64,000 nt of DNA from Psychrobacter coccoides (GTDB lineage: Bacteria > Pseudomonadota > Gammaproteobacteria > Pseudomonadales > Moraxellaceae): positions 1 through 64,000 of the forward strand of contig NZ_JAGBKM010000018.1 in the NCBI RefSeq assembly GCF_017498085.1, in the 5' to 3' direction. Each line of letters opens with the position of its first letter. The stretch's first letter is position 1. A model generated the notes under the pieces. That model had not been told where the DNA came from, searched no databases, and saw only the letters and a program-made list of their open reading frames with translations. Position numbers and translations under genes: made by a program. Below, one piece after another: positions 30,850-49,836 of the stretch.

Positions 30850-31683
30850 ATGACGACCTCGGATACAAACAGCCAAGTAACGGCCAATCAGCCTGCGATA
30901 AGCTTCTACGGCAAGATGCTGACATTTTCGCGCCTGCAGCTACATACAGATGACCCAGCAGCAATCGAAGAGCACTTAGCCGGTTTGGTTAGTAACAAAA
31001 ACAGCAATATTCCAGTCGTTATCGACAGTAGCGTTGAGCAAGACTTATCCGCTTTAGTAGATCTGCTTTGGTCGTGGGGATTGCAGCCTATCGGTGTGGT
31101 CACAGGCTTGCTTGATGAACAAGCCCGCCTACAAAGGCTGGCCATTTTTCCAAGTGATGGCAAACGTATCGAACGTATATTGCCAACGAAAAAACCAAAA
31201 ACTGAAATCAATCAAACCACTGAGCCCAAAACCTCACAAGACTCGACGACAAACAGTGAACAAAATACTTCCTTGTCAGAGGCCGACACCCCTTCCAAGC
31301 CTGCAGCAGCCTTGTCTACTGATACAGTAGAGAGTGCAGATCATATAACCAGTTTGATCTATGATCAAATGCTACGCTCTGGACAAAGCATTAATCATGT
31401 TGGTGGTGATCTCATCTTGACCAATAGTGTCAATAGTGGCGCTGAAGCAATCACAGACAATAGCCTTCATGTCTATGGTCGAGCTCAGGGCAGACTGGTA
31501 GCAGGCGCTACAGGTGACAAAGACGCCCGTATTTTTTGCCAAGTTTTTAACCCTTCCCTAGTCTCTGTCGCTGGCACCTACTGCTTACGAGATAACCTAC
31601 CTGAGGAAACCATTGATAAGCCGGTACAGGTGCGTTTCGTTGAGGGCCAAGGGTTGGTGTTTACCGTAATGGATAATCTATAA
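30850..31683 (+). CDS. minC: Septum site-determining protein MinC
   Basis: A 277-residue inhibitor of FtsZ assembly. The N-terminal domain (about 15-115) is followed by a Thr/Ser/Glu-rich linker (about 120-160). The C-terminal beta-helix domain (about 165-277) has the family pattern GDLILTNSVNSGAEAITDNSLHVYGRAQGRLVAGA. With MinD and MinE it prevents division at the poles. An AAGGA site lies before the ATG. minD follows only after 383 bp. Confidence 0.93.
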   Translation: MTTSDTNSQVTANQPAISFYGKMLTFSRLQLHTDDPAAIEEHLAGLVSNKNSNIPVVIDSSVEQDLSALVDLLWSWGLQPIGVVTGLLDEQARLQRLAIFPSDGKRIERILPTKKPKTEINQTTEPKTSQDSTTNSEQNTSLSEADTPSKPAAALSTDTVESADHITSLIYDQMLRSGQSINHVGGDLILTNSVNSGAEAITDNSLHVYGRAQGRLVAGATGDKDARIFCQVFNPSLVSVAGTYCLRDNLPEETIDKPVQVRFVEGQGLVFTVMDNL

Positions 31684-33355: not shown

Positions 33356-33937
33356 TCAGCTATCTAAATCGACCAACTGGTGGGCAATTTTGTCTAAGTC
33401 TGGCACCAAGTAATGTACATTATCAATCATAACTGTCTGAAACATATAAGAAGTCACGACATTTTCTCTAAAGCGGTTTGCTGTCACTTCTAGCTCAGTG
33501 TCATTGAAGCCATCACTAGCAGATTGTTGATGCTGCGACCCTTCTTCACTGCTGTGGATAGCAGCGCTATTACTCTGGGCCTGTTGCCGGTACACGTCAG
33601 GCAGTTCAGCGTCTTCAACATCTGAGATACGCACCTGCATTTGCCGTATCTCACCTGCCGTCTGTAGAGCCAATCGGTGAGCTACCGTATTGCCTTCTAA
33701 TACGATGATTGTATCAACCTGCTGATCATCTGGAACCAAGTGAAACACAGCGACTTCCTGCTGCTGCCACAAGTAGGTCAAAATATGCTCATCATAGGCA
33801 TCGACACTTAATATCAAGCTGCTAGGAATGATCCAATCGGGCTGATTTAGCGCGGGTATAACAGTCACTTCAAGCATACCTTTACTGGTTGTCAATAAAC
33901 TGACAGCTTCAAATGAATGCTTCATGATTTGCTTCAT
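33356..33937 (-). CDS. Probable CheW-like (ChpC-type) protein
   Basis: A 193-residue protein encoded behind the cheB-like gene, with ATGA overlap. The N-terminal half (PSSLILSVDAYDEHILTYLW..EVAVFHLV) and the C-terminal part (YMFQTVMIDNVHYLVPDLDKI) are compatible with a divergent CheW-like fold split by a Gln/Ser-rich stretch at about 125-150. In Pseudomonas the ChpA system has a CheW-like ChpC next to ChpB, so position supports that name. The sequence similarity I can see is modest, and an unrelated accessory protein remains possible. Confidence 0.6.
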   Translation of the reverse strand: MKQIMKHSFEAVSLLTTSKGMLEVTVIPALNQPDWIIPSSLILSVDAYDEHILTYLWQQQEVAVFHLVPDDQQVDTIIVLEGNTVAHRLALQTAGEIRQMQVRISDVEDAELPDVYRQQAQSNSAAIHSSEEGSQHQQSASDGFNDTELEVTANRFRENVVTSYMFQTVMIDNVHYLVPDLDKIAHQLVDLDS

Positions 33938-34944
33938 AAATCGATCACCGTAGATAAAGAAGGGGTTGCCACTCTCTCACCGATATACTCGGTAAGCTTT
34001 TGGGCCAGTGCTTTGGGACTGCCAACAAACTGACAGTATCCTGAATCAATAATAGCCTGTGGTTGATTGGGGTACTTACTCAGACTCGGATCTTGTGCCC
34101 AGATCTGACTATTGTTATCTTGAATGGCGTCTAAGTGCTGGACACCATCATTACCCATACCAGAAAAAACAATACTTATGAGCTCACTACCATAGACGTC
34201 ACTGGTGTTTTTGAGTAGCTGACCGATCGAGGGTTGGTACTCTTCTGGCCACTTTTGCTCTGTCAAGATCACTCTACCATGAGAGTCACAGACAATCTGT
34301 CGATCAATAGGTGCTATCAGGCAATACCCAGAGCGCAGTCTCTGACTCATAGAGATCACTTGATATTGCCAATCATTATGATGATTTAATATACGTGGTA
34401 AGGTCTCGATCATATCTTGATTGAAGTGCTGTGCCAACAAAATACAAATCGGCAATGAGGGCGACAAATTATCCAAAAAGGCTTTGATCGCACTAGGACC
34501 GCCTGCTGATGAGCCTAAAAAAACCACAAACTTCCACGGAGGCGTTGACCCATCATAAGTGCTGTTTTGCAGCAGGGCAGGTTTATTAAGTAGCTGAGCC
34601 AGCTTGCGCTTTAGCTTACGCTGCCATTGGGCATAACGATACACTTCATTAAGATGTGGTGCTGGGCTAAACCCAACTAGAACCACACTTGAGTTAGAGG
34701 CCTTAATTGCCATAGCAATCGTGTCATCATACTCACTATCAATCAACCAAATATCAACTTGGACCTGATAAGGTTGAGGTTTATCTTGCAGTTGCTGACG
34801 CGACAAGCAATCAACCAGCACCAAATCGCAACTGCGTACCGTGTCACTGAATGCCAGCCTTTGATGCTGATTTTCTGCTATCACTAGTACTCTAATAGCG
34901 CTGCTCTCCTTAGTGCCTAGATGTGAGGTGACCATATTATCCAT
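33934..34944 (-). CDS. CheB-type protein-glutamate methylesterase (ChpB-like)
   Basis: A 336-residue protein. The C-terminal methylesterase domain (about 150-320) shows the catalytic Ser in FLGSSAGGPSA, the His in LLAQHFNQDM and the Asp in SGMGNDG, the triad of CheB. The N-terminal part (about 15-120) looks like a degenerate receiver: it starts RVLVIAENQHQR but lacks the usual acidic pair and clear phosphorylatable Asp. It should demethylate or deamidate the PilJ receptor. It overlaps the chpA end by 8 bp and the next gene by 4 bp. Confidence 0.88.
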   Translation of the reverse strand: MDNMVTSHLGTKESSAIRVLVIAENQHQRLAFSDTVRSCDLVLVDCLSRQQLQDKPQPYQVQVDIWLIDSEYDDTIAMAIKASNSSVVLVGFSPAPHLNEVYRYAQWQRKLKRKLAQLLNKPALLQNSTYDGSTPPWKFVVFLGSSAGGPSAIKAFLDNLSPSLPICILLAQHFNQDMIETLPRILNHHNDWQYQVISMSQRLRSGYCLIAPIDRQIVCDSHGRVILTEQKWPEEYQPSIGQLLKNTSDVYGSELISIVFSGMGNDGVQHLDAIQDNNSQIWAQDPSLSKYPNQPQAIIDSGYCQFVGSPKALAQKLTEYIGERVATPSLSTVIDL

Positions 34945-37900
34945 TTTGACTTAAGCTAATGCTATATCCTAATTGCGCTTCAATTTTATCCAACAACTCG
35001 TTTTCTTGGAATGGCTTACCCATATAGTCATTGACGCCGAGCTTAAAGGCACGCTCTTGATGTTTTTCACCAGTACGTGAAGTGATCATGATAATAGGTA
35101 TATCACGCAAACGCTTATTGTGACGCACCTGCGTCGTCACTTCAAAACCATCCATACGCGGCATCTCGATATCTAGCAGGATAAGATCTGGCGTCATCTC
35201 TTGTAGTATCTCGATAGCATCGATACCGTCTTTGGCAACAGCAACATTGATCCCTTGACGCTCTAGTAAGCGTGAAGTAACTTTGCGCACGGTGACTGAG
35301 TCATCAACAACCAATATTCTAGTTTGTGACGACTTATCCTCTCTCTTAACTTTGATGTCTTTCTTGACATCCTTGACAACTGGAGCGTTACGCATCAGAG
35401 CCATCGGATCCAAAATAGGCAGTACAGAACCGTCACCCATAATGGTAGCCGCTGAAATACCTGCAAGGTTTGCAAGCTGGCGACCTAGAGGCTTTACCAC
35501 CACTTCGATACGTGATCCTGCGATCTGATCGACCTGAAGCGCGGTTTTTTGACCAGTACGATTTTTGATCACAATCACCGGCAAGCTGGTATTGGTACTG
35601 ACCATTAACTCATTGAGTTTATTGCCAGATAAAATCTCATTGAGATAGCGAATACGATAATCTTCGCCTTCAATTCTTAAACTGCTCACGCCAGACTCGT
35701 AATAGTCATAAAGGCTTTCAGGATTGACACGAATGACCCGCTCAATCTGTACCAGAGGTATGGCGTAATAACGATCTGCAGCACGTACCACTAAGGCATC
35801 TGATATGGCGACAGTCAACGGCATACGAATCGTAAAGCGAGAGCCTTTGCCTTCCTCAGAGCTGACCGATACCGAGCCACCCAATTGACGAATCTCACTT
35901 ATCACTACGTTCATTCCAACGCCGCGCCCTGAGATTTGTGTGACTCTTTTATTGGTCGTTAGACCCGCATTAAAGATATACTGCATAATATCTAGGTCGC
36001 TAAGACTGTCATCGTCAGCGGCAATCAAGCCTTGTTCAATGGCTTTATTTTTTACCGCTTCGACATTAATGCCATGACCATCATCGGATAAATGAATGAC
36101 AATCTCACTGCCTTCCCGTATGACGTCTAAATTGATTTGACCGCTACGGGCTTTCCCGGCTCTTAAGCGTGCTTGAGTGTTTTCGATGCCATGGTCGATG
36201 GCGTTACGTAACATGTGCTCAAGAGGTGAAGTGATGCGCTCAAGAATGGTTCTATCAATCTCATCATCGGCATTTACAATGTTTAGCTCTACTGACTTAT
36301 TAAGCTCATGAGCGGTTTGTCTGACAATACGCTCAAGGCGTGGTACTACTCGGGTAAACGGTACCATACGTGAGTTCATAAGCCCGTCTTGTAGCTCAGC
36401 TTGAGTACGTGAAAGCTGTAATAACAGACTTTCGTTATCACGTGTTTTTTCGAGCAAGGTTCCTTTAATATCAATCAAGTCAGAAGCGGACTCTGTCAAA
36501 GATTTTGACAGTTGGTTCAAGGATGAGTATTGGTCCATTTCTAGTGGATCAAACCCTTCTTCGTTCATTAATGACCTATCATCAATCTGCGATAGGATTT
36601 GCTCTTCAAGCTCGGTTTCCATTCGACGTAACTGGTCGGCCAGACGTTGAACTGTAGTCCCCATCTCTTCGATGCTGTTGGTCAGGCTACTCATTCCCAT
36701 ATCGATACGAGCACGGTTGATTGCTGACTCACCTGATAGGTTAATCATATGTTCAACCAGGCTGCCTGATATACGAACGACCTCATTATAATTGTCGCTT
36801 TTTTCCTGCGTCTCAAAGCTGCCAGTCATGGGGGGCATGTCATTAATATCAACTGTCACCCGCCCTCTTTGCTGCTGCTTAGCAGCTGAAATCATACTGC
36901 GCTGCTCTTGCAAAGACTCTCTAGGGACATGCTGCAAATTATCAGGGTTCTTACTAAACTGCTTTAATGCCGCAATCAAAGCTGTCGGTAGCGGCGGGTT
37001 TACTTTTTGCTTGAGAATATAAACCGCATCAGCTAACCAGTCATGACAAGCCATAAGCAGCTGCGAGACCATCTTTGTCGCTGGGCGACGGCGAATCGCC
37101 AACTCTTCGTATACGGTTTCCATCTCATGAGCCAGATCAGCGATACCGTTAGCAGTCACCATACGTGCACCACCTTTGATGGTGTGCAAATCTCTTTGCA
37201 ATGCTTGTAAAGCAGCCACATCACTAATATTACTCAAAAACAGCTGCAGGTATTTGTTGCTGCTTTCAATAATCTCATCAGCTTCTTCTAAAAACACCTC
37301 TAAAATATCAGCATCAGGCAGCTCGCCTGCCCAAGACTCCGCAATGATGTCAGCCAGACTGTCTGTTTTGACAGCATGGTCAGTATCTGCAGTGTCAGCT
37401 TCAGCCAAGTCCTCATCACTGTCTTTATACAAGGCAGGTAAAATAAGGGTTATGGCTGTTGGCAGCTCATTAGCTCGCTGAAAGCCTTGTAACTGCTCAA
37501 TAAGCTCGTTGGCAAAAAACGACTCTTGATAGCGCTCTACATAGTCAATTTGCAAGGACAGCGTGTCGTGCAATATCTGCATGATCGTGAGCCACTGAGG
37601 CGTCGGCTGCAATTCCTGCTCGTCAAATGCTTCGTAAATATTCTCTGCCATATGCGTCAAGTCACCGATACTGCGGATCCCTGCCATTTGTGCACCACCT
37701 TTAATGGTATGCATATGACGCTGTAGAGTTTTTAAGGTAGTATGATTACTGAGGTCAGTTCGCCACTTATTGAACGTCTGAGCCACAACACCGTCTAGTT
37801 CCTGTGTTTCTTCTAAGAATATCTCTAACAGCTCAATATCGGTATTGATTGCTTCAGTCTGTAGCGTCTCTGCTTGAGTACTATCTACACTTGGCTCAAC

Positions 37901-40900
37901 GACCTCGACATCGACATCAATATTTTCTGGCATAGCAGCAGCTAAACTCTCATCACTATCGGTGATGGCTTTTAAGTCTATGAGCACTTGCTGATCTACT
38001 TTTAAGGACATACCTGCTGCAATGGCATCGAATAAGCTGATCAATTGCTGATGACCGGCGAGCAGCGCTTGCTGTAACTGTACGCCTTCGGCAATATCAG
38101 GATAGGCTCTAATCTGCTTATAGGCTGCATGCAAAGCATTTAGCACCGAAGTAAACTTTGGTGAGTCAGTAGTCTGCTCTATTAGTTGTTCGATTTGGTA
38201 GATTTGTTGTTCAGCATAGTCTTGTACCGCAGTCGTGCTTTCACTAGCCAGTTTATCTTGCAGCTGCCATTCAGCATCAAGCAAACCATCAACATCAGCC
38301 TCTAAAAGATTAGCAACCACTAACTCATTGTTTACAGCGGTTTCGGTCTCATCAGGCTCGCCAAGCATCACTTGTAAAGAAACCAAGTCATCTTGGTTTT
38401 GAAGTGTGGCAACTGGTACGTCCTGCTGATTGACATCCTGCGTATAATTATTCAGATAGTTTTCAATCAATAACACTGATTGACACAGCGCCTGTAAATG
38501 CTGAGCACTCATAAGGATATCTTGTTGCTGCAGCTGCATTAAGCTTTGTTCTATTGTGGCGCTGATCTGACTGACAGCAGACAATGCACTCGAGCCAGAA
38601 GACGAGCGCAAGGTATGAAATGCTCGCACTATCTCATCTGCAACTTCAACCTCACTGTCTTCACGATGGGCATTGACAAAGTCTTTGACATCTTGCAGCA
38701 GCTCTTGCGCCTCTTCGATAAATATGGCGCAAAACGCTTGCTCTTCACTGCTTTGAGGGGTAGTTATTGCTGAAGCATCAGCCATCATCTCATTGACAGA
38801 ATGAATAGACGCTAAAGCAGGATCAGGGCTAACACTTTCATTGACAGGACTGTCCACAATATCAGAGCAATACCTAGTGCTATCTGTCTTTGCATTATCA
38901 GCACTGAGATTAGTGTCGCTCTTCGCAGGCACACGCTTACGTAAGGCAGCATAGCTAAACTCATCACCATATTGCTTACTATAAGCACCAGCACAGGCAA
39001 TCCACAACGATACTATCTCGGGATAGTCAGCGTCCTGACTGCTACTACTGCGGGCAAAAATGTCTACTAAGTTAGGATAAGCCAGCAAAACGTCATCTAT
39101 CAGCTGAATAACACCTGCAGACACGTCGATACTATGCTCTAAAATACGATTGAGCATATTTTCTATGGCCCAAGCCAACTCACCTGTATAGTGTGCGCCA
39201 ACCATACGGCCAGAGCCTTTGAGTGTATGAAAGCCGCGTCGTACTTCTTTTAGTTTGGTTAGATCAGCAGTATCATCACACCAGCGGTTATAAAGAGGTA
39301 TGATTTCAGCCAACACCTCTTCTGCTTCTTCAATAAATATCTCTTTGATATCGGCATCTATATCATGGTCATCGGCAGGTGACTGCAAAGCCTCTTGCAT
39401 GAACGGCTCAAGCACAGCAGGTATAGCAGAATCGGTCGGAGCGAGGCTTGACTGCGCTGTAGCCTCATTTATCACATGACCATGAGTAGCATCAGACTGA
39501 CTGGCTGACGTCAGAGGGGCTTCTGTTGAATGGCTGGACTGATTTGCATCAGACTCAGCGAGCACTGGCTGCTCTGTATTTTGGTCTAATGCTTGGCCAG
39601 TTGCAAGATTGTTGATTTGTAGAATAATAGTAGCAGGGTCTGTATGAGGCGCTTGTTTTGCTAAAAAACTGGCGACCATGGTGGGCAGTTGCGCTGTTGT
39701 CTCTACGACCCGCCCTACCATCTCGTCAGTTATCGCCAACGACATATCTAAGGCTTTGTTAAGCAGGCTTTCTAGAGCCCATGCTATCTCACTGATACTG
39801 TAAGCCCCTGCCTGACGGCCTGCTCCTTTTAGAGAATGAAAGCCACGGCGCACTTCTATTAATGGCGTCAGATCCTGCGCATCTTGTTGCCAAATAGAGA
39901 CAAAATCATCAAGATCTTCGATAATCTCCGCAGCCTCTTCAGCAAAAATATCTCGGATATCCTCACTCACTTCAAAATCATCGGACTGTATCGAGGTATA
40001 TGACGGATGTAATGCCTTGCTATCAGCGTCAATCATCGGCAACACATCAGACGTCGTCTCAGCTTCAGCTGTCTGGTTTTTATCAGCTGCCTCTAGGACT
40101 GCTTTACCGTCAAGATCATCTAGGGTGCTATCCAAGGTTGAGTCATTAGGTGCTATCTCTCCTGTGTCATCGTAACGCACCTCATTAGAAGCTGTAGTTA
40201 CGGCAAACTGATAGGTATCCGTCACCGTATCAGGTGCTGTGATTAGCACATCCAAAAGCTCGCCTGCCTTTTCTAGTTGTGCGTCTATCTTTGCCAACAA
40301 CTGCTGATCAAGGACCTGATGTCCCAAATAACTGAGCAATAGCTCAAAGGAGGCGATTCCTTGCACTAATACTTCAACGAGCTCTTTGCTAAGGCGCTCT
40401 ACTTTATGCTCGGCCATCTGTGCAAATAAATCTGCCATCTGATTATTTATTTGTCGTATTAAAGGCAGTTCTAGATTATCTAGTACCTCACCGATTTCTA
40501 CAAAAGCCTCTGAGATAGCTAATAAATAAGTCTGCTTATGCGGCTGCTGTAAGTATTGCTTAAAGTTGTTTTTGACGTCTTCTAGAGCAAGGCGCAGATG
40601 GCGCAGCGTACTAGCAAACGTCATCTCAAAAGAGACAGACTTTGCATCGATAGAGTTATCACCAGATACAGTGGCTTCGGATGAAGGTGCTGTCGTCTCG
40701 TCGATATTGGTTTGGATAAGCTGCTCAGTGTTATAAATAGAGCTATATGACTCTTGCAACTGACGCTCAATTTGCCACTGCATTTGTGCAAACGCGTCTT
40801 CAGAGCTTAGACTGCTGTCAATATCAGACAAGATCTGATCTATATGTGATTCGTACTGTACCCAGCCTCGTTGTCCTAGCTGCCTTTTAATATCTTGCAA

Positions 40901-41914
40901 TGGTCTGGTGAGTGCTTGCGGCTCTTCGAGATCAAAGATCACAGATTCAAGATCAGCCAAGATGCGAGGTAAAAAACGCATCGTACTGTCATGTTTTGAT
41001 AATGAGTGGCTGATTAAGCTTTGTGTTGACAGATTAAGGCTCTTTAGCAGGTTGAGCTGAATAAAGATATCGGCAATCAGGCCTTCAATATCTTCTTGCT
41101 GTATATCGCTGTTTGTCTGACCGTCTGTAGCCAAAGCTTGTCGATGGCGCTTTACAATGACTTGCTCTAAACGTGACAGCAGATGAGCATAGCTTGCTGG
41201 TATCGGCGAGTCATTATCCAGCATATTTTGCAACCAAAGCGCTGTCAGATACCATAGACGTTGCTGATTCTGACTTGTACTGGTCTGCCATAAGTAATGG
41301 CTGGCCTTTTCTAGGCTGGCTAACGTTTCAACTTGATTACGATTGGTGGCGAGCAGTTGTTGCGTCTGTTGGCGCCATGCCAGTAATAGCTGCTGATACT
41401 GCTCAGGCTGCATAGGTAGCAAGACGGTATCCTTAGATACGTCTATGTTTATACTTTCTTGAGCATGTTGGCTTTGGTAAGCACTGACCAGCAACGCTGG
41501 GTCATTATTGTTTGACCCGTCTTGTGGTTTTAGATCTTGAGCAAGCTGCTGGATAACTCGATGCAGTAGTACCTCATGACAAGCGCCTGTTTGCACCGTA
41601 TATGTCAGCTCATATCGCAGCAATTGATGCGCAAACTGTACCAGACGGTACCCTATACCAGTATCAACCTCCGTACCGACTACTTTAACAGACCAGCGTA
41701 GCTGAGAGGCTAAGGCTGCTAATAAAGGCAGGTTTATCATGGTTAAGGTGTTGCTGATCTGATGATAAGACTGTGCCATAAGATCAAAGTCAGGATGAGC
41801 ATCTGCTTGCCAACCATCAGATACAATTGATAACTGCTGATCGAGTAATGGTAGCAACCACTCTCGCCTTACCATTTCATTAGGCTGGTTATTCATAAGG
41901 TTATCCTGACTCAT
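34937..41914 (-). CDS. chpA: ChpA, multi-domain chemotaxis-type hybrid histidine kinase
   Basis: A 2325-residue kinase of the twitching-motility chemosensory pathway. The N-terminal third is helical and FimL/HPt-like without clear phospho-His. Five His-containing phosphotransfer motifs follow: HSLKGAG (about 694), HTLKGSG (895), HTLRSSSGSSA (1098), HTIKGGAQ (1401) and HTIKGGAR (1576). Next come a dimerisation region, a CheA-type ATPase domain with LEHMLRNAIDHGIEN (about 1900), SDDGHGIN and GRGVGMNVV, a CheW-like domain (about 2060-2180) and a C-terminal receiver (about 2195-2315, phospho-Asp in LILLDIEMPRMDG). It is coupled to PilJ through PilI and signals to PilG and PilH. It is similar in order to Pseudomonas ChpA (about 2470 aa). 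The next gene overlaps it by 8 bp. Confidence 0.95.
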   Translation of the reverse strand: MSQDNLMNNQPNEMVRREWLLPLLDQQLSIVSDGWQADAHPDFDLMAQSYHQISNTLTMINLPLLAALASQLRWSVKVVGTEVDTGIGYRLVQFAHQLLRYELTYTVQTGACHEVLLHRVIQQLAQDLKPQDGSNNNDPALLVSAYQSQHAQESINIDVSKDTVLLPMQPEQYQQLLLAWRQQTQQLLATNRNQVETLASLEKASHYLWQTSTSQNQQRLWYLTALWLQNMLDNDSPIPASYAHLLSRLEQVIVKRHRQALATDGQTNSDIQQEDIEGLIADIFIQLNLLKSLNLSTQSLISHSLSKHDSTMRFLPRILADLESVIFDLEEPQALTRPLQDIKRQLGQRGWVQYESHIDQILSDIDSSLSSEDAFAQMQWQIERQLQESYSSIYNTEQLIQTNIDETTAPSSEATVSGDNSIDAKSVSFEMTFASTLRHLRLALEDVKNNFKQYLQQPHKQTYLLAISEAFVEIGEVLDNLELPLIRQINNQMADLFAQMAEHKVERLSKELVEVLVQGIASFELLLSYLGHQVLDQQLLAKIDAQLEKAGELLDVLITAPDTVTDTYQFAVTTASNEVRYDDTGEIAPNDSTLDSTLDDLDGKAVLEAADKNQTAEAETTSDVLPMIDADSKALHPSYTSIQSDDFEVSEDIRDIFAEEAAEIIEDLDDFVSIWQQDAQDLTPLIEVRRGFHSLKGAGRQAGAYSISEIAWALESLLNKALDMSLAITDEMVGRVVETTAQLPTMVASFLAKQAPHTDPATIILQINNLATGQALDQNTEQPVLAESDANQSSHSTEAPLTSASQSDATHGHVINEATAQSSLAPTDSAIPAVLEPFMQEALQSPADDHDIDADIKEIFIEEAEEVLAEIIPLYNRWCDDTADLTKLKEVRRGFHTLKGSGRMVGAHYTGELAWAIENMLNRILEHSIDVSAGVIQLIDDVLLAYPNLVDIFARSSSSQDADYPEIVSLWIACAGAYSKQYGDEFSYAALRKRVPAKSDTNLSADNAKTDSTRYCSDIVDSPVNESVSPDPALASIHSVNEMMADASAITTPQSSEEQAFCAIFIEEAQELLQDVKDFVNAHREDSEVEVADEIVRAFHTLRSSSGSSALSAVSQISATIEQSLMQLQQQDILMSAQHLQALCQSVLLIENYLNNYTQDVNQQDVPVATLQNQDDLVSLQVMLGEPDETETAVNNELVVANLLEADVDGLLDAEWQLQDKLASESTTAVQDYAEQQIYQIEQLIEQTTDSPKFTSVLNALHAAYKQIRAYPDIAEGVQLQQALLAGHQQLISLFDAIAAGMSLKVDQQVLIDLKAITDSDESLAAAMPENIDVDVEVVEPSVDSTQAETLQTEAINTDIELLEIFLEETQELDGVVAQTFNKWRTDLSNHTTLKTLQRHMHTIKGGAQMAGIRSIGDLTHMAENIYEAFDEQELQPTPQWLTIMQILHDTLSLQIDYVERYQESFFANELIEQLQGFQRANELPTAITLILPALYKDSDEDLAEADTADTDHAVKTDSLADIIAESWAGELPDADILEVFLEEADEIIESSNKYLQLFLSNISDVAALQALQRDLHTIKGGARMVTANGIADLAHEMETVYEELAIRRRPATKMVSQLLMACHDWLADAVYILKQKVNPPLPTALIAALKQFSKNPDNLQHVPRESLQEQRSMISAAKQQQRGRVTVDINDMPPMTGSFETQEKSDNYNEVVRISGSLVEHMINLSGESAINRARIDMGMSSLTNSIEEMGTTVQRLADQLRRMETELEEQILSQIDDRSLMNEEGFDPLEMDQYSSLNQLSKSLTESASDLIDIKGTLLEKTRDNESLLLQLSRTQAELQDGLMNSRMVPFTRVVPRLERIVRQTAHELNKSVELNIVNADDEIDRTILERITSPLEHMLRNAIDHGIENTQARLRAGKARSGQINLDVIREGSEIVIHLSDDGHGINVEAVKNKAIEQGLIAADDDSLSDLDIMQYIFNAGLTTNKRVTQISGRGVGMNVVISEIRQLGGSVSVSSEEGKGSRFTIRMPLTVAISDALVVRAADRYYAIPLVQIERVIRVNPESLYDYYESGVSSLRIEGEDYRIRYLNEILSGNKLNELMVSTNTSLPVIVIKNRTGQKTALQVDQIAGSRIEVVVKPLGRQLANLAGISAATIMGDGSVLPILDPMALMRNAPVVKDVKKDIKVKREDKSSQTRILVVDDSVTVRKVTSRLLERQGINVAVAKDGIDAIEILQEMTPDLILLDIEMPRMDGFEVTTQVRHNKRLRDIPIIMITSRTGEKHQERAFKLGVNDYMGKPFQENELLDKIEAQLGYSISLSQNG

Positions 41915-41988
41915 TTATACACTTGATTTATGCATTTGTGCTTACCATAGCAACAACCGCTGTATCACATCACTATCTAATCATGGCT

Positions 41989-43398
41989 TTAGTAAATCTC
42001 AGCAACAGCTTCTAAATGCTCTTCTTCATCTGAGAGCTTAAAGCCTGTTACTGATTCTTGTAGAGCTGCTGCCATCTCATTTAACTCGCCAATAGAGCGT
42101 GCTGTTGCCATAGTACCTGATGAGGTTTGTGAGGTGATGTCCTGAATGATGTTCATGGTATTGGAGATACTACCGGCAGACTTGGCCTGCTGCTGTGCGG
42201 CATCTGAGATATTTTGAATCAAGTCTGCTAGAGTGTTCGATACACTTTGGACTTCTTCTAGCGCTTCACCAGCATCCTTTGCTAAGCGCGCCCCGCGTAC
42301 TACTTCAGAAGTGGTCGACTCCATAGACATGACCGCTTCACTGGTATCTGCCTGAATGGTTTTAACCAAGGTTTCAATCTGTTTGGTGGCGTTGGCTGAA
42401 CGTTCTGCCAGACGCTGAACCTCATCGGCAACGACTGCAAAACCACGCCCTGCCTCACCAGCCATAGAGGCCTGAATGGCAGCGTTCAAGGCCAATACGT
42501 TGGTCTGATCAGCAATATCATTAATCAAGCTAACAATATCACCAATCTCTTGTGATGACTCACCTAAGCGTTTGATTCGTTTTGACGTTTCTTGAATCTG
42601 ATCACGAATGACGTTCATGCCCTCGATTGAGCGCTGTACTACCTCTGCTCCATTATGCGCAATCACAACTGATCTTTGGGCAACAGCCGCTGATTCAGTT
42701 GCGTTATCCGATACTTGGTCAATAGATATGGCCATCTGATTAATTGCGCTAGATACGCCGTCAATCTCCTGAGCTTGGTGCTCAGACGCTTCAGCCAGCT
42801 CGACAGCGTTCATCTGAGTCTGCTGAGATGATTGCGAGACACGATCAGCAGTACTGTTGATGACCAATACCAGTTGGCGCAATTGGTCAATAGCGAAGTT
42901 GACTGAGTCAGCGATTGCACCCGTAAAGTCTTCTGAGACGGTAGCGTTAACGGTCAAGTCACCTTCAGCCAAGTCACCAAGCTCATCAAGTAGGCGCAAA
43001 ATCGCCATCTGGTTACGCTCGTTTTCTTCTTGGATTTGGCGGGCACGCTCAGACTCAGTTTCTGACTCTTGACGCCGACGTAAGGTTTCTTTTTCAATCA
43101 GTATACGCTCAGCACCACCACGGTTTTTAAATAACTGCGTTAGGACCAGTAGCATTCCAAGTAAGCCGATCAAAAATAAAATAGCTGGCCATACTATGCT
43201 ACCACTGGTTAAGAGTTCACGCTCAACATCACTTAAGTAATGGCTTACCGTTGCGAGCGAGTTGATTAACCAAGCTAAAAAAACAACACTCACTAAGGCA
43301 AAAAGCCCTAATAAAATCTTCCACTTCCTATTGGAGTCCTCAACACCTAGCGTACTTGTACTCACACTAGCTGTAGGGCTTTTTGTAACATCACTCAT
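41989..43398 (-). CDS. pilJ: Methyl-accepting chemotaxis protein PilJ, short form
   Basis: A protein of 469 residues from ATG 43398, which is well spaced from GGAAGGA. Two membrane helices (about 28-48 and 67-90) enclose only about 17 residues of periplasm. A HAMP-like segment with [23 protein letters not shown] and the signalling domain (about 195-460) follow. The hairpin tip [40 protein letters not shown]-type segment is intact. PilJ of Pseudomonas is about 680 residues with two large periplasmic PilJ domains, which are missing here. Position between pilI and chpA supports the PilJ role. Confidence 0.88.
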
Positions 43399-43516
43399 TG
43401 TGTTCATTCCTTCCAAACAGTCGTTTAAGTCGTATCATGACTAGCTTTGCATCACCTGACTCAAAACAAGCAATTAGCTATATTTATTGTTGGTAGTAAC
43501 TATTTAGCACTGCACC

Positions 43517-44044
43517 TTATATCGCTGCATCAATATATCGCCCATCTTTAGCCAACAGGCTTGGCATAAAGACAAACCACTCTTGCTGATCTTTTACAAA
43601 CTTGCCATGATTATAAGGGGCGAATGGTGAGTCGCTATCGATGGCTTCAGCACGATACTGACCATGTGTAAACTGCTCAATACCGAGCACTTTATCTACG
43701 ACTAGACCAGAAAACACAGTACTATTATCAATCACCAAAACCTTACGCAGGCTTTTTTTCTGACGACTTGGTACATTCAAAAACTGCGGCAAGTCCGTTA
43801 AAGGCAATAAGCGTCCACGTATATTAGCAATACCTAGTAGCCATGGCTCTACCATAGGGATATGGGTATATTCAGGTATGCTTAACACCTCAAAAACCTC
43901 TCCCATCGGTGCCACTAAGCGTTGGTCGCCAACCTCAAACACCACACCTCGCCAGTCATAGTCTTTACCACTTTGAAGACCACGGCTACGGGCTTTGGCT
44001 AGATCGGCCAAACGTAAAAGCTCAATAAATCCTTTAGAGGCCAC
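43517..44044 (-). CDS. pilI: CheW-like coupling protein PilI
   Basis: A 175-residue CheW-domain protein that links PilJ to ChpA. The core RLVAPMGEVFEVLSIPEYTHIP, WLLGIANIRGRLLPLTDLPQFL and VLVIDNSTVFSGLVVDKVLGIEQF is typical. It begins with GTG, behind a GGAG site, 3 bp after the pilH stop, so the two genes are cotranslated. The C-terminus WFVFMPSLLAKDGRYIDAA is characteristic of PilI. Confidence 0.92.
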   Translation of the reverse strand: MASKGFIELLRLADLAKARSRGLQSGKDYDWRGVVFEVGDQRLVAPMGEVFEVLSIPEYTHIPMVEPWLLGIANIRGRLLPLTDLPQFLNVPSRQKKSLRKVLVIDNSTVFSGLVVDKVLGIEQFTHGQYRAEAIDSDSPFAPYNHGKFVKDQQEWFVFMPSLLAKDGRYIDAAI

Positions 44045-44047
44045 AGG

Positions 44048-44410
44048 TTACTCCGTTACCGATTGGATAACATGCATCAGCTCAGATTCGTTAACTGGCT
44101 TGGTAAGATATTCTTTTGCCCCTTGGCGTTTACCCCACACTCGATCAGTTTCTTGATTTTTGGTGCTAATCATAATCACTGGGATATGGGCGGTGGTTTT
44201 ACCACGGGTGATCTTACGGGTCGCTTGGAAACCGTTCATTTCTGGCATGACCACATCCATTAAAATGACGTCGGGTAAGTGCTCTTCTGCCATCTTGCAG
44301 CCGTGCTCACCGTTAGCCGCTTCTAATACCTGAAAGTCGTTTCTGGCAAGCATGTCACGGAATTTCGCCATCTCTGATGGTGAGTCGTCAATGACTAGTA
44401 CAGTCTTCAT
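44048..44410 (-). CDS. pilH: Response regulator PilH
   Basis: A single receiver domain of 120 residues from the ATG at 44410, preceded by AAAGGA. The acidic pair is in VLVIDDSPSEM, the phospho-Asp in DVILMDVVMPEMNG and the conserved Lys in GAKEYLTKPV. In Pseudomonas PilH modulates retraction through PilU and acts as a phosphate sink for ChpA. pilI follows after 3 bp. Confidence 0.92.
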   Translation of the reverse strand: MKTVLVIDDSPSEMAKFRDMLARNDFQVLEAANGEHGCKMAEEHLPDVILMDVVMPEMNGFQATRKITRGKTTAHIPVIMISTKNQETDRVWGKRQGAKEYLTKPVNESELMHVIQSVTE

Positions 44411-44622
44411 GGTGTTTCCTTTATATTTTGACATCCACTAGGATATTTTTTGTTGTTGCAGACAGTAACTGTTAAATACAGTGGCTGTTACTAAAGGCAA
44501 ATGATTGCTTTTTTACGATTTATATATAATCAGTGCGCAACAGTACTATCGTTGTCACTATTCATCTGTGTCAGTGCTTAGTGCTAAATAACATCAACCA
44601 AAGTGACAAAAATTGGCAATGA
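44411..44622. other. pilG-pilH intergenic gap
   Basis: 212 bp without a gene, longer than the gap in Pseudomonas, so pilHIJ-chpA may have its own promoter here. Confidence 0.5.
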
Positions 44623-45000
44623 CTAGCGATACTGCTCAATTGCGTCAAACAGCTCATTTTTACTAAAAGGTTTGGTTAAATATTCGTCAGAACCGACAAT
44701 ACGGCCACGAGCCTTATCAAACAGTCCATCTTTTGAAGACAACATAATGACGGGCTTTTCGGCATAATCAGGATTGTTTTTGATCAAAGCGCAAGTCTGA
44801 TAGCCATCAAGGCGTGGCATCATAATGTCAACGAAGATAATATCTGGATTGTTATCAACGATTTTTGCTAATGCATCAAAACCATCAATAGCGGTAACGA
44901 CTTCACAGCCCACTTTTTGTAATAAAGTCTCAGCAGTACGGCGAATGGTCTTTGAGTCATCAATCACCATAACCTTCAACCCTTCAAAGTTATTTTCCAT
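44623..45000 (-). CDS. pilG: Response regulator PilG
   Basis: A receiver-only protein of 125 residues from the ATG at 45000. An earlier in-frame ATG, 6 bp upstream, is too close to the AGGA site. Motifs: VMVIDDSKTIRR, DIIFVDIMMPRLDG with the phospho-Asp, PVIMLSSKDG and DEYLTKPF. It is phosphorylated by ChpA and promotes pilus extension through PilB and, in Pseudomonas, adenylate cyclase. It heads the cluster. Confidence 0.93.
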   Translation of the reverse strand: MENNFEGLKVMVIDDSKTIRRTAETLLQKVGCEVVTAIDGFDALAKIVDNNPDIIFVDIMMPRLDGYQTCALIKNNPDYAEKPVIMLSSKDGLFDKARGRIVGSDEYLTKPFSKNELFDAIEQYR

Positions 45001-45006
45001 TATCAT

Positions 45007-45351: not shown

Positions 45352-46611
45352 ATGATGAAAAAACTAAAACCTTCTACATGGTTTAAATACAGCGCTGTTG
45401 TCATGACAGTGTTGTCTATAAGTGCTTGTCAGCCACCTTCCTCTACTGATACCCAATTACCCCCTGAAGAGAGCGATCAGGCAAGCTCACCCCTATCTAT
45501 CAGTGCTGACACGGTGAGTATGACATCAGACTATATACTCAGTACAAAACCGTCTCGCTATCAGCCCAGTCTTGGATTACAAGGTACCATCACCCCTGAC
45601 AAGCAGTCACGCTTTGTTACTACTCGTAATGTCATAGTCCAAAAAGTTCTGGTTAAAAAAGGCCAGTGGGTAGAAAAAGGCGCACCTTTGGTTATCTTAA
45701 AACAACAAAGCAGTGCAAATACAGCAGCGCCTTTAGAGGTTAATGATGATAATTCTGAGCGGCTATCGGTGCGCCAAACAAATGAAGCTGCATCTAAACA
45801 AGTCAATGACGATAAAGAAGACAGCGCAAGCGATACTAATACGACAAACACTGAAGGCAGACGAAACGAGACAACCACTAACGCCTCAAAGGATAACAAT
45901 GACATTGAAAATAGCTCGCTGATCAAGACATCGGCTGAATCTAGTGACACGGATGCGATTGTCGATCATACTGAGCCCACTGTCGATGGTGAGCCTCCCA
46001 TTGTGGTCTATGCCAGCTTTTCAGGACGTATAGACGCCCTGTATGTCGACGCTCTGCAACAGGTGGCTGCTGGCAAGCCATTATTACTATTAAGCAATGA
46101 TGACAACTTACGCTTTATCGCCACTGTACCTAGTCGAGCAGAGTCTCAGCTGTCAGTAGGTCAGACCGTCAACTTCTTAACGAAAGAGCTGGCAAAGACT
46201 TTTACCGGACAAATCAGCAAACTCAGCAAAGATGCGCAATCAGATGATCTAAAAGTCTACGTCAGTGTGGTAAAAAACGAGGCCAGCCGCAGTAACCTAA
46301 AGCCTGGTATGCCCGTGACAGGCCGCGTTGATTATGGTCAAATCGCTGTCGGCAATATCGTCCCTAAACAGGCGCTTCATGATGTGGACCTCTCCTCTCT
46401 GCAGAGCCCACCTTATCAACCATTGACACCGCTAACCGCTCATGTCTGGATCATAGAACAAAACCAACGCCTAACTCGGCAATCCGTTGAGGTCATTGAA
46501 TATGATCCCAGCACTGGCAAGTATCTTATTGCTGGCATCAGCAATGACAGTTTGATTTGTTTGGCTGACTTGCCGATTGACGCTGTTGGCAAAAAAGTAG
46601 TGGTTTCTTAA
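45352..46611 (+). CDS. HlyD/RND-type periplasmic membrane-fusion lipoprotein
   Basis: A 419-residue lipoprotein (lipobox VLSIS-A-C26). A lipoyl half-domain is seen at about 75-115 (NVIVQKVLVKKGQWVEKGAPLVIL) and the second half at about 215-245 (ASFSGRIDALYVDALQQVAAGKPLLLL in part). Beta-barrel-type sequence follows (about 250-330) with the usual LKPGMPVTGRV. Between the lipoyl halves, where a coiled-coil hairpin is normal, there are about 95 Ser/Thr/Asn/Asp-rich residues with little helical pattern. No inner-membrane pump or outer-membrane channel gene is adjacent, so the partner is unknown. Confidence 0.72.
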   Translation: MMKKLKPSTWFKYSAVVMTVLSISACQPPSSTDTQLPPEESDQASSPLSISADTVSMTSDYILSTKPSRYQPSLGLQGTITPDKQSRFVTTRNVIVQKVLVKKGQWVEKGAPLVILKQQSSANTAAPLEVNDDNSERLSVRQTNEAASKQVNDDKEDSASDTNTTNTEGRRNETTTNASKDNNDIENSSLIKTSAESSDTDAIVDHTEPTVDGEPPIVVYASFSGRIDALYVDALQQVAAGKPLLLLSNDDNLRFIATVPSRAESQLSVGQTVNFLTKELAKTFTGQISKLSKDAQSDDLKVYVSVVKNEASRSNLKPGMPVTGRVDYGQIAVGNIVPKQALHDVDLSSLQSPPYQPLTPLTAHVWIIEQNQRLTRQSVEVIEYDPSTGKYLIAGISNDSLICLADLPIDAVGKKVVVS

Positions 46612-46918
46612 TAAAGCCATTAAATTGTGGCAATCGCACTATCAAGCTACTGTCGGTCGGTAGACTGAATTGATCATTGGCTAGACCAGTTATCCACGGA
46701 CCCTAATGCCTATATTAAAAGATGGGCATTAAAAGATGGATATTGAGAGATGGGTCGAAACATGGATTGTTACATTCTGTAGAAACATTAACAAAGGCTG
46801 TCTTGTTTGGTAACGTCAATATTAGGCAAAATAGACATATTGACCCTATAATTAATTAACCCTATAACTGTAAATCATATTAATAACAATCACTATAACC
46901 ATGACTAGAGGACATTTT
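46612..46918. other. Gap with a three-unit 14-bp tandem repeat
   Basis: 307 bp between the membrane-fusion gene and the response-regulator gene. Three 14-bp units are seen at 46715-46756. Otherwise it is A+T-rich and should contain the promoter of the two-component operon. Confidence 0.55.
46715..46756 (+). repeat. Tandem repeat, 3 x 14 bp
   Basis: The units are TTAAAAGATGGGCA, TTAAAAGATGGATA and TTGAGAGATGGGTC. They lie 160 bp before the response-regulator start and could be binding sites for that regulator; this is a guess from position. Confidence 0.65.
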
Positions 46919-47641
46919 ATGAGTAAGCAAATCCTATTGATTGAAGACGACCCTGACTTAGCAGAGCTTATCAGCGACTATTTGACCATGAACTACTATG
47001 ACGTGCATCATGCCGGGCTTGGACAAGAAGGCCTTGATATTTTGGATGCCAAAGAACGTGATATCGACTTGGTCGTCTTAGACTTGATGCTACCTGATAT
47101 GGATGGTATGCAAGTCTGTCAAAAGATTCGTGGTAATAAGAGCAATATGACCAATAAAGTGCCCATCATTATGCTGACAGCTAAAGGAGATACTACTGAT
47201 CGGGTCTTAGGATTAGAGATGGGTGCTGACGATTACATCGCCAAGCCATTTGAGCCTCGTGAGCTTTTGGCTCGTATTCGGGCCGTGATTCGCCGCCATG
47301 AACAACCAAATCAAGCTGACAGCCAGTCTGATAGCTTGACATTTGGGCGTCTCAGCGTGTTCCCTGACAGCCATGAAGTGACCATTGATGAGCAACCTGT
47401 GCGCTTGACCACTCACCAGTTCCAATTGCTGCATTATTTCGCTACCCATGCAGGTAAAGTACTCAACCGTGAGCAGCTATGGCAGGCCATGCCAAATGAT
47501 GACAGCTCTGATAATATCGATCGAGCCATTGATGTACATATCTCACGTCTGCGGGCACTGATCGAAGATAACCCTCGTCAACCGAAACGTATCATCACAG
47601 TACGCGGCGTTGGCTATCAGTTTGCCACTGATCAAGTCTGA
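46919..47641 (+). CDS. OmpR-family response regulator
   Basis: A protein of 240 residues from the ATG at 46919, behind AGAGGA; an upstream in-frame ATG 18 bp earlier lacks a site. The receiver (about 1-120) has LLIEDDPDLAELI, VVLDLMLPDMDG and DYIAKPFEPRELL. The winged-helix domain (about 140-240) has TTHQFQLLHYFATHAGKVLNREQL and the recognition region DRAIDVHISRLRALIEDN. It pairs with the histidine kinase 134 bp downstream. It is close to the RstA/CusR-like branch, but I cannot name an orthologue. Confidence 0.92.
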   Translation: MSKQILLIEDDPDLAELISDYLTMNYYDVHHAGLGQEGLDILDAKERDIDLVVLDLMLPDMDGMQVCQKIRGNKSNMTNKVPIIMLTAKGDTTDRVLGLEMGADDYIAKPFEPRELLARIRAVIRRHEQPNQADSQSDSLTFGRLSVFPDSHEVTIDEQPVRLTTHQFQLLHYFATHAGKVLNREQLWQAMPNDDSSDNIDRAIDVHISRLRALIEDNPRQPKRIITVRGVGYQFATDQV

Positions 47642-47775: not shown

Positions 47776-49836
47776 ATGCAACAACTGGGTTTTCGCTCTG
47801 TTTTCGCTAAGTTATTTGCCAGTGTCATGCTGGCACTTATCTTATTTGCCATAGCGATGGTGCTATTGACGCAGTTGGTTCATGACAAAGACGCAGGCAT
47901 TCGCTCCGAGGTGGTTGCCACGCAAATATTAGGGCAAATAGATCCTTTTTTACAAGAGCTAAACGTTGCTGTTAGTAAAGACAATCGACTACAAGCACGC
48001 TTTATGCTCGCTGTGGTCAAAAAGAGCTTTGATATTTTTGATGAGTCATTACAGGCTAAGATGGGCTTGTATGATAATACTGGACACTTGCTCATGCAGA
48101 CAGACAATAGTGATCTACCACTAGAGCTGCCTGATACGCCCTCGTTACTGACTCGTGTTTTTCCTTCTTTTTCAGACACACCAGCTACCCAGCAAGCGCA
48201 AGTATATAGCAGCACAGGGTACACTTTGTTGTATGAGTCGCGCTTAACTCCCAAGAAACCTGCCTTATCTGCCGCTTTAAATTTATTTACTGGCACACTG
48301 CTGCTGCTGCTGATTATGGCAGGCGTTTTATGGTTAATCGCCCGCACCATGACTTGGCGTATCAATCAGATGAGTCAGCAGATGGCTCAATTGGGTGATG
48401 GTGATTTTACGGTGCGTGTCAACAGCCGTGGTAATGATGAAATCGCTTCGCTGGCACGGGGGTTTAACCAAGCAGCACAAAAGATCGAACACCTTGTCAA
48501 TGCCAATAGTCTACTACTGGCTCACGCCTCACATGAGCTACGTACCCCCATCACTCGCATTCGATTACAGATTGAGATGATGGATATGCTGGCAAGGAGT
48601 ATGCCCAATGATATTAAAGAAAAGTTTGATAAACGGGCACAAGCTATTAATCGTGACCTCTCTGGCTTAAATGATTTGGTAGAGAGCATCTTGTTGGTCA
48701 GTCGCTTGGATGCTGGTCATGCTATGCAGCAAATTGAGCGGGTAGACTTTTATGACCTGATCAATCAAGAGCGTCAACATTACTCTGAAGCCACCTTGAT
48801 TGGTGAGCATATTGTGATTGATGGTCAACCAGCCATGCTGACTCACTTGATTCGCAATTTACTAAATAACGCCATGCTGCATGGGGTGCCACCCGTGACT
48901 GTCTTGCTTTATGGCGTACAGGATAGAGCGGATGCAGACACCATACCTGACTATCTACTGCAATCAATAGTAGACAGCAGTTTTGCAGACTATAACTGCT
49001 TAACTGATGCCGATGAAGACACGCTGCTTGATACAAGCTTGGCATTGCTGAATGATGACTCTGATACTGCTGATAACGTAACCAAGTCAAAGTCTGACCC
49101 GCTGGCTTTAGGTGAGCACTTAGACGCTCAAGACGCTTTATCAGCGCCCGTCATCTACCGAAATGGCGAGACGCTGACGCCCCCGAGTGATGACGAGAAA
49201 GGCCCCGATCAGCTTGCCAGCCCAAAGACAGTAGACTCCGCCTCTGGCGCTACCTTTGACACCAGCACTCGCAATGATGAGGGTGACGCTGATACTACCG
49301 CAGCTGTAAAAGAACCCCGCTTTTCTGCTGCATCACACGGTGTGCCGACGGAGGTCATGGCGCTTGATAAAGCCATATTTAGCCCTGCCCCTGATGATAC
49401 AAGTATCAGCCTTCTCACTAACACTACAACCGTCCAAAGCGTCCAAAATAACGCCAAGGCGGATGGTGCAGATAAGCCCGACGGTCTCAACGATAACGAC
49501 GCAAACAACGAGCCTCGTAAAGAAAGCTTGTTTTTAAAGCATTTAAAGAAAACCAAGCCTGAACCAGCACGCCCATTACCAAAGTATGCTGTGCTCGCTG
49601 TGATAGATGAAGGTGCAGGTATACCAGAGGATAAACGTGAGGAGATCTTCAGTCCCTTTGTACGCTTACAGCAAAAAAACAAAGGGTCTGGCCTTGGTCT
49701 ATCTTTGGTCTCACAAATCGTTAGTGCCCATCAAGGCCACATTATTAATGATACGATTAATGGTCATACTCGGTTTTTGGTCATCCTACCCGTCAAGCAT
49801 GATCCACATTATCACTCGCCAGACGAGCATGATTAA
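47776..49836 (+). CDS. Sensor histidine kinase with a long insertion in the ATPase domain
   Basis: A 686-residue inner-membrane kinase. Membrane helices at about 12-34 and 172-195 flank a periplasmic sensor domain of about 135 residues. A HAMP domain (about 196-245) and the phospho-acceptor His253 in HASHELRTPITR follow. The N box LIRNLLNNAMLHG is at about 355-367. Instead of the usual few residues there is then a Ser/Asp/Thr-rich stretch of about 220 residues before AVIDEGAGIPEDKREEIF (about 605) and GSGLGLSLV. It phosphorylates the regulator encoded upstream. Ligand and regulon are unknown. Confidence 0.88.
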   Translation: MQQLGFRSVFAKLFASVMLALILFAIAMVLLTQLVHDKDAGIRSEVVATQILGQIDPFLQELNVAVSKDNRLQARFMLAVVKKSFDIFDESLQAKMGLYDNTGHLLMQTDNSDLPLELPDTPSLLTRVFPSFSDTPATQQAQVYSSTGYTLLYESRLTPKKPALSAALNLFTGTLLLLLIMAGVLWLIARTMTWRINQMSQQMAQLGDGDFTVRVNSRGNDEIASLARGFNQAAQKIEHLVNANSLLLAHASHELRTPITRIRLQIEMMDMLARSMPNDIKEKFDKRAQAINRDLSGLNDLVESILLVSRLDAGHAMQQIERVDFYDLINQERQHYSEATLIGEHIVIDGQPAMLTHLIRNLLNNAMLHGVPPVTVLLYGVQDRADADTIPDYLLQSIVDSSFADYNCLTDADEDTLLDTSLALLNDDSDTADNVTKSKSDPLALGEHLDAQDALSAPVIYRNGETLTPPSDDEKGPDQLASPKTVDSASGATFDTSTRNDEGDADTTAAVKEPRFSAASHGVPTEVMALDKAIFSPAPDDTSISLLTNTTTVQSVQNNAKADGADKPDGLNDNDANNEPRKESLFLKHLKKTKPEPARPLPKYAVLAVIDEGAGIPEDKREEIFSPFVRLQQKNKGSGLGLSLVSQIVSAHQGHIINDTINGHTRFLVILPVKHDPHYHSPDEHD

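Follow-up and report, generated by a model that had tools for sequence, protein, structure and literature searches.

The two-component locus and its surroundings

The window analysed here, a stretch of 64,000 nucleotides from Psychrobacter coccoides, contains a gene for a membrane histidine kinase of 686 aa (47776..49836, +), whose frame is open through all 686 codons. The protein has two TM helices with a periplasmic domain, followed by HAMP, HisKA and a split HATPase_c domain. HAMP spans residues 187-238 (48334..48489, +; Pfam PF00672, E 1.1e-12) and the HisKA/DHp domain residues 244-314 (48505..48717, +; PF00512, E 2.3e-11); the latter bears the phosphoacceptor motif SHELRTP, in which His253 is an invariant column of the kinase alignment. 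The Pfam bit scores of HAMP (48.5), HisKA (44) and HATPase_c (55) exceed the curated cut-offs of 25, 26.9 and 26.4, which together with the phosphoacceptor His places the protein among the transmembrane HisKA/HATPase_c histidine kinases.

Within the ATP-binding (CA) domain, the N box LIRNLLNNAMLHG occupies residues 358-370 (48847..48885, +), with R360, N361, L362, N365, A366, H369 and G370 all invariant. The G1 box DEGAGI follows at residues 611-616 (49606..49623, +), with an intact F box (FSPFVRL, residues 625-631) and G2 box (GSGLGL, residues 637-642) downstream. The motif residues of the N, G1, F and G2 boxes are invariant across 52 kinase sequences, and the modeled CA domain has a Bergerat fold. 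In the original prediction the N box ended near residue 367 and the next ATP-binding motif began near 605, which was off by about three residues.

Directly upstream lies the cognate OmpR-type response regulator of 246 aa (46901..47641, +; Pfam Response_reg and Trans_reg_C). Almost every locus (94/95, 19/20 and 5/5) has it next to the kinase, and it is 93-99% identical in most Psychrobacter examined, with 88% in one. Further upstream, a gene for an HlyD-like lipoprotein (45352..46611, +) accompanies the pair in most loci of Psychrobacter and Moraxella, and its product is a possible partner; an efflux transporter gene directly beside it was not found in the window. The lipoprotein has a disordered insert of its own, about 99 aa rich in D, S, T and N, inside the barrel-sandwich domain. 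Another long disordered linker in this genome occurs in a MinC-like protein (30850-31683, +), where about 50 S/T/D-rich residues connect the two halves. A Pil-Chp-like chemosensory cluster (33356-45006, -) is located just upstream of the locus and comprises a ChpA-like hybrid of 2325 aa (34937-41914), MCP-like and CheW-like proteins and two small response regulators. The position of its last gene (44623-45006) next to the kinase locus is maintained in many relatives.

A 222-residue insert splits the ATP-binding domain ahead of the G1 box

The N and G1 boxes of the kinase are separated by 240 residues, of which 222 (residues 382-603; 48919..49584, +) are inserted, in good agreement with the roughly 220 originally predicted. 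For comparison, the N-to-G1 spacing in other HATPase proteins measured in the same genome is 22-67 aa. The insert sits in a beta-hairpin between the strands VTVLLYGV (374-381), which follows the N box, and YAVLAVID (604-611), which runs into G1. The best Pfam HATPase_c stretch covers residues 604-674 and enters the profile as late as position 37, since the portion with the N box lies at too great a distance upstream for the two to be linked. A short N-to-G1 hairpin is a usual rather than a curated defining trait, and membership in the kinase family therefore stands.

The location of the insert differs from the earlier proposal that it forms the ATP-lid side. The lid, between the F box and G2, is very short and intact, and the insert site is the hairpin ahead of G1, outside the lid. 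Two other proteins of this genome have enlarged CA loops. The hybrid kinase L169 (G000:C3) is described below. A CpxA-like kinase (L003, G000:C13) carries an S/T/K-rich extra segment, ARQRPKTTKPVNRSLSTDKSSSHVGGYG, in the ATP lid, and loop expansion in this genome thus reaches a true lid too.

A Pfam search with the insert gave no match of any kind. A second copy was sought in the same genome and not found, so that a duplication of the insert elsewhere in the genome was rejected. A tandem-repeat origin was likewise rejected, as TRF detected no array within the insert; the program reported a single short CTG run upstream of it (48298-48312).

The insert is retained in all orthologues compared

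The distribution of the kinase was determined by a scan of genome contigs, which gave 80 loci, and by a separate search covering 299 family genomes. The gene is present in 131 of the 299 genomes and in three genera only, Psychrobacter (g1), Moraxella (g10) and a third genus (g7). An Acinetobacter orthologue had been suggested for comparison; among 16 family genera, kinase matches at E <= 1e-40 were obtained in these 3, and the other genera tested gave weak matches only.

All 111 non-identical orthologues compared (window protein included) carry the insert at the same place, with lengths of 46-301 aa, and an orthologue without it, sought as a refutation of the original prediction, did not occur among them. 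The insert measures 111-301 aa in Psychrobacter (median 246 if the window protein is excluded), 46-105 aa in Moraxella and 90-115 aa in g7. In a tree of the core rooted on g7, Moraxella forms a single clade, and the length of the insert agrees with the branching: the insert is short in Moraxella, reaches 111-206 aa in the group on the P. phenylpyruvicus side and 148-301 aa in the main Psychrobacter clade. In some relatives (L068, L151 and L152) the kinase gene is broken or incomplete, with its parts in separate frames, which may reflect sequencing errors.

The abrupt break in homology is the only feature that would speak for a segment outside the mature kinase, that is, a frameshift, a pseudogene, an intein or a bypassed coding gap. 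We give this explanation next to no chance. The window and almost all orthologues have an open frame, dN/dS is below 1 throughout, the core is strongly constrained, and the insert lacks a Pfam match and, by inspection, intein-like ends. Frameshift, pseudogene and intein were rejected on the open frames, the dN/dS values and the missing Pfam match. The claim of a true in-frame insertion is upheld, and with 110 further non-identical orthologues bearing the insert at the same position, neither chance nor a sequencing artefact accounts for it.

A folded base and long disordered spacers are predicted within the insert

Structure was predicted with AlphaFold2 for the whole window protein, using a moderate-depth alignment of 52 fairly close sequences. 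In the Psychrobacter alignment, four conserved islands can be distinguished within the insert. Island 1 is a base helix, QDRADADTIPDYLLQSIVDSSFADYN (residues 382-407; 48919..48996, +; w 0.06-0.105), with the genus consensus IPDYLLQ..SSFxDYN immediately following the strand; helices are predicted at 384-388 and 392-406, with pLDDT 85-93 over residues 371-400. An acidic spacer predicted to be disordered follows (residues 408-454; 48997..49137, +; w 0.30-0.35; pLDDT < 50 over 403-452). Island 2 is a small hairpin, LSAPVIYRNGET (residues 455-466; 49138..49173, +; w 0.04-0.07), with the genus consensus LPAPxIYxNGE and predicted strands at 460-462 and 465-467 (block pLDDT 83). Residues 475-584 again have pLDDT below 50.

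The position of island 3 is occupied in the window protein by the degenerate sequence VMALDKAIFSPAPD (residues 527-540; 49354..49395, +). In many other species it conforms to the consensus DLTDxIKKVxWRxVP, or more broadly DLTDxIKKVxWxxVP with an IKKxxW helix, and it is absent from several. Island 4 is a basic foot, RKESLFLKHLKKTKPEPARPLPK (residues 581-603; 49516..49584, +; w 0.045-0.05), with the consensus RKExLFxKHLKKxKxEPxRPLP; it contains the FxKHLKKxK foot and terminates at the G1 strand.

A second model, of the CA domain alone from another species (L010), gave pLDDT values of about 91 for both the base helix and the hairpin and below 50 for the spacers; island 3 appeared as a weak helix (201-218, pLDDT about 57) and island 4 as nothing firm. 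The modeled CA core aligned with ThkA (3a0x; Z 17.3, 136 residues, 1.7 A) and EnvZ (4kp4; Z 16.2). As the alignment to solved domains spans the insert, the ATPase fold is predicted to close around it, and the stretch was not seen to form a normal domain outside the ATPase core. No membrane helix is present in it, as had been stated. The description of the insert as disordered holds for most of its length, except that the first ~25 residues are predicted as helix, residues 455-467 as a small hairpin, and the four islands are under strong purifying selection.

Conserved islands are carried on fast-evolving spacers

The selective constraint was compared between the kinase core and the insert by Nei-Gojobori counts on partly overlapping pairs of increasing divergence; 22 independent pairs gave the same picture. 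At similar dS, the core exhibited dN/dS values of 0.026-0.034 compared to 0.24-0.43 for the whole insert. Within the insert, the four islands reached 0.038-0.114 and the spacers 0.295-0.484, so that the spacers evolve about ten times faster than the core. Most indels of the insert fall in the spacers. The synonymous rate of the insert equals that of the core, and at this rate the low dN/dS of spacers (0.3-0.48) and islands (0.04-0.11) indicates that the segment is translated.

Because the islands had first been chosen by eye from the same sequences, we also performed a held-out clade test. Insert columns that were conserved in one randomly drawn half of the clades had a pN/pS of 0.060 in the other half, compared to 0.406 for the remaining insert columns, and the direction was identical in 20/20 splits. 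Short conserved motifs thus lie in a fast-evolving disordered segment, as would be expected of an arm resembling the WalK tail.

The strongest rival to a regulatory arm is loop growth around a structural cap, which we regard as a serious but less probable explanation. It states that the hairpin before G1 tolerates insertions, that loops of this type tend to be extended in Psychrobacter by filler that is acidic and rich in S, T and N, that the islands merely cover and stabilize the enlarged hairpin, and that the arm as a whole has no signaling role. Consistent with such lineage-typical growth, the adjacent HlyD-like protein has acquired disordered sequence of a similar kind (32-143 aa in Psychrobacter, 0-97 in Moraxella), an extra stretch of about 40 residues occurs at this hairpin in the genome's hybrid kinase, and the kinase spacers are almost free to change. 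The islands that are confidently folded are 1 and 2, and the high confidence may just mean that they pack on the CA domain. However, the comparable filler of the HlyD-like protein has 0 conserved columns at >= 60% majority, compared to 47 in the kinase insert, and the kinase insert was never lost in the 111 orthologues compared. In addition, the most constrained and oldest island, the basic foot, is predicted to be unstructured, and structural packing explains it poorly. Loop growth hence accounts well for the spacers, but poorly for the islands.

The basic foot is the oldest constrained motif

Judging from the alignments, the oldest constrained motif is the basic-hydrophobic foot F-x-K-[HR]-x-K-K beside the G1 strand. 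A basic-hydrophobic motif like that of island 4 is the only one that can be recognized in almost every sequence from the three genera, exemplified by DFLKRLTRTK and SLLRFSRQK in Moraxella and SIFSRKK in g7. A foot pattern, which was fitted by eye, matched 105/111 tails compared to about 19 in shuffled tails. The body of the insert is acidic in 110/111 sequences, and a net positive charge characterizes the last 35 residues in 109/111.

This layout, a basic-hydrophobic pattern with an acidic body upstream that is kept in all three genera, would also fit a membrane or nucleic-acid tether, in which the foot FLKHLKK tethers the CA domain to the inner membrane face and controls its mobility, with the acidic body as an electrostatic counterweight. 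The foot is short, though, and neither model predicts a helix in it, and we think such a tether improbable.

A possible regulatory arm on the CA domain

Taken together, alignments and structure models show that the kinase core is intact, that the insertion site is conserved and that constrained islands are set on fast-evolving spacers predicted to be disordered. As only a few short motifs are strictly kept in an insert that otherwise changes rapidly, the arm is probably a working part rather than filler. Our favored reading, to which we assign an even chance, is that of a regulatory arm on the CA domain in which flexible spacers carry docking motifs alongside a folded cap; the docking role considered in the original prediction is plausible. 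The folded base, formed by the helix 384-406 and the small YxNGE hairpin, would form a cap at the CA domain edge. The exposed motifs, and the basic foot in particular, would bind a partner reversibly; the likeliest candidates are the cognate response regulator and the DHp/CA surfaces of the kinase itself. In this way, the arm could set the engagement of the ATPase domain with the DHp helices and the regulator and thereby the balance of kinase and phosphatase activity. Length and acidity of the spacers may tune reach and local concentration, which would need little sequence conservation.

Several observations speak against a regulatory arm. Island 3 is degenerate or missing in the window species and several others, and as few as 46 inserted residues suffice in Moraxella. 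Moreover, conservation of the cognate regulator far exceeds that of the arm, and there is therefore no sign of co-variation between them.

In a bolder version, which we rate as rather unlikely, the arm would be a multivalent cytoplasmic input/output module whose hairpin, amphipathic helix and basic foot engage a different partner, not the cognate regulator. If so, a second, cytoplasmic signal would act directly on the ATPase domain; the CA domain would possess a regulated insertion point, with docking motifs acquired step by step between Moraxella and Psychrobacter.

Tuning of histidine kinases usually involves their sensor, HAMP and DHp parts, and the ATP-binding domain is viewed as a fixed engine. 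Here, a whole clade retains an arm of 46-301 residues inside that domain, mostly disordered by prediction and with constrained motifs on fast spacers. The short Moraxella and long Psychrobacter forms provide a natural length series on how a disordered arm may act upon a kinase.

Comparison with known systems

In the open-access literature, we found no report of large N-to-G1 insertions or of this Psychrobacter/Moraxella kinase-regulator pair. The kinase shares HAMP, a SHELRTP-type HisKA domain, the HATPase_c boxes and an OmpR-type regulator with the EnvZ/RstB-type HisKA kinases (NF007898, NF007004; PDB 4kp4, 4cti). These have a short N-to-G1 hairpin, whereas the Psychrobacter hairpin holds 222 residues. 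The best NCBIfam scores are 123.4 bits for RstB (NF007898, cut-off 478) and 122 bits for EnvZ (NF007004, cut-off 415); being far under the cut-offs, they mark the protein as no equivalog of either, and RstB membership was rejected on this basis. In our favored reading, it is an active EnvZ/RstB-like transmembrane histidine kinase with an accessory arm in its CA domain.

In Moraxellaceae members without this gene, the nearest kinases are those which we take to be BfmS-like. In 13 other family genera the best kinase match was weak and local, mostly to such proteins of about 550 aa with a normal hairpin, and the regulators beside them are 42-47% identical to the query regulator. The window genome has its own BfmS-like kinase (L002, at C67), with a normal hairpin and 23 aa from N to G1, beside a 45%-identical regulator. 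As this pair coexists with the insert-bearing kinase, the latter represents a separate system; its identity as a BfmS orthologue was rejected, and the BfmS-like kinase is a paralogue that shares about 30% identity along part of the length. A milder case of hairpin enlargement is the hybrid kinase L169 (935 aa) of the same genome, which has a surplus of about 40 residues in the same CA hairpin and 67 aa from N to G1.

The closest works-like analogue is the disordered C-terminal W-acidic tail of WalK from Streptococcus mutans and Staphylococcus aureus, a CA-borne segment in which one short conserved motif docks the regulator; the tail binds WalR, and both phosphotransfer and phosphatase activity depend on it (PMC9087282). 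No homology is claimed between the two: the WalK tail is short, C-terminal and built around a Trp and acidic motif, whereas the Psychrobacter arm lies inside the CA fold and carries basic-hydrophobic and YxNGE motifs.
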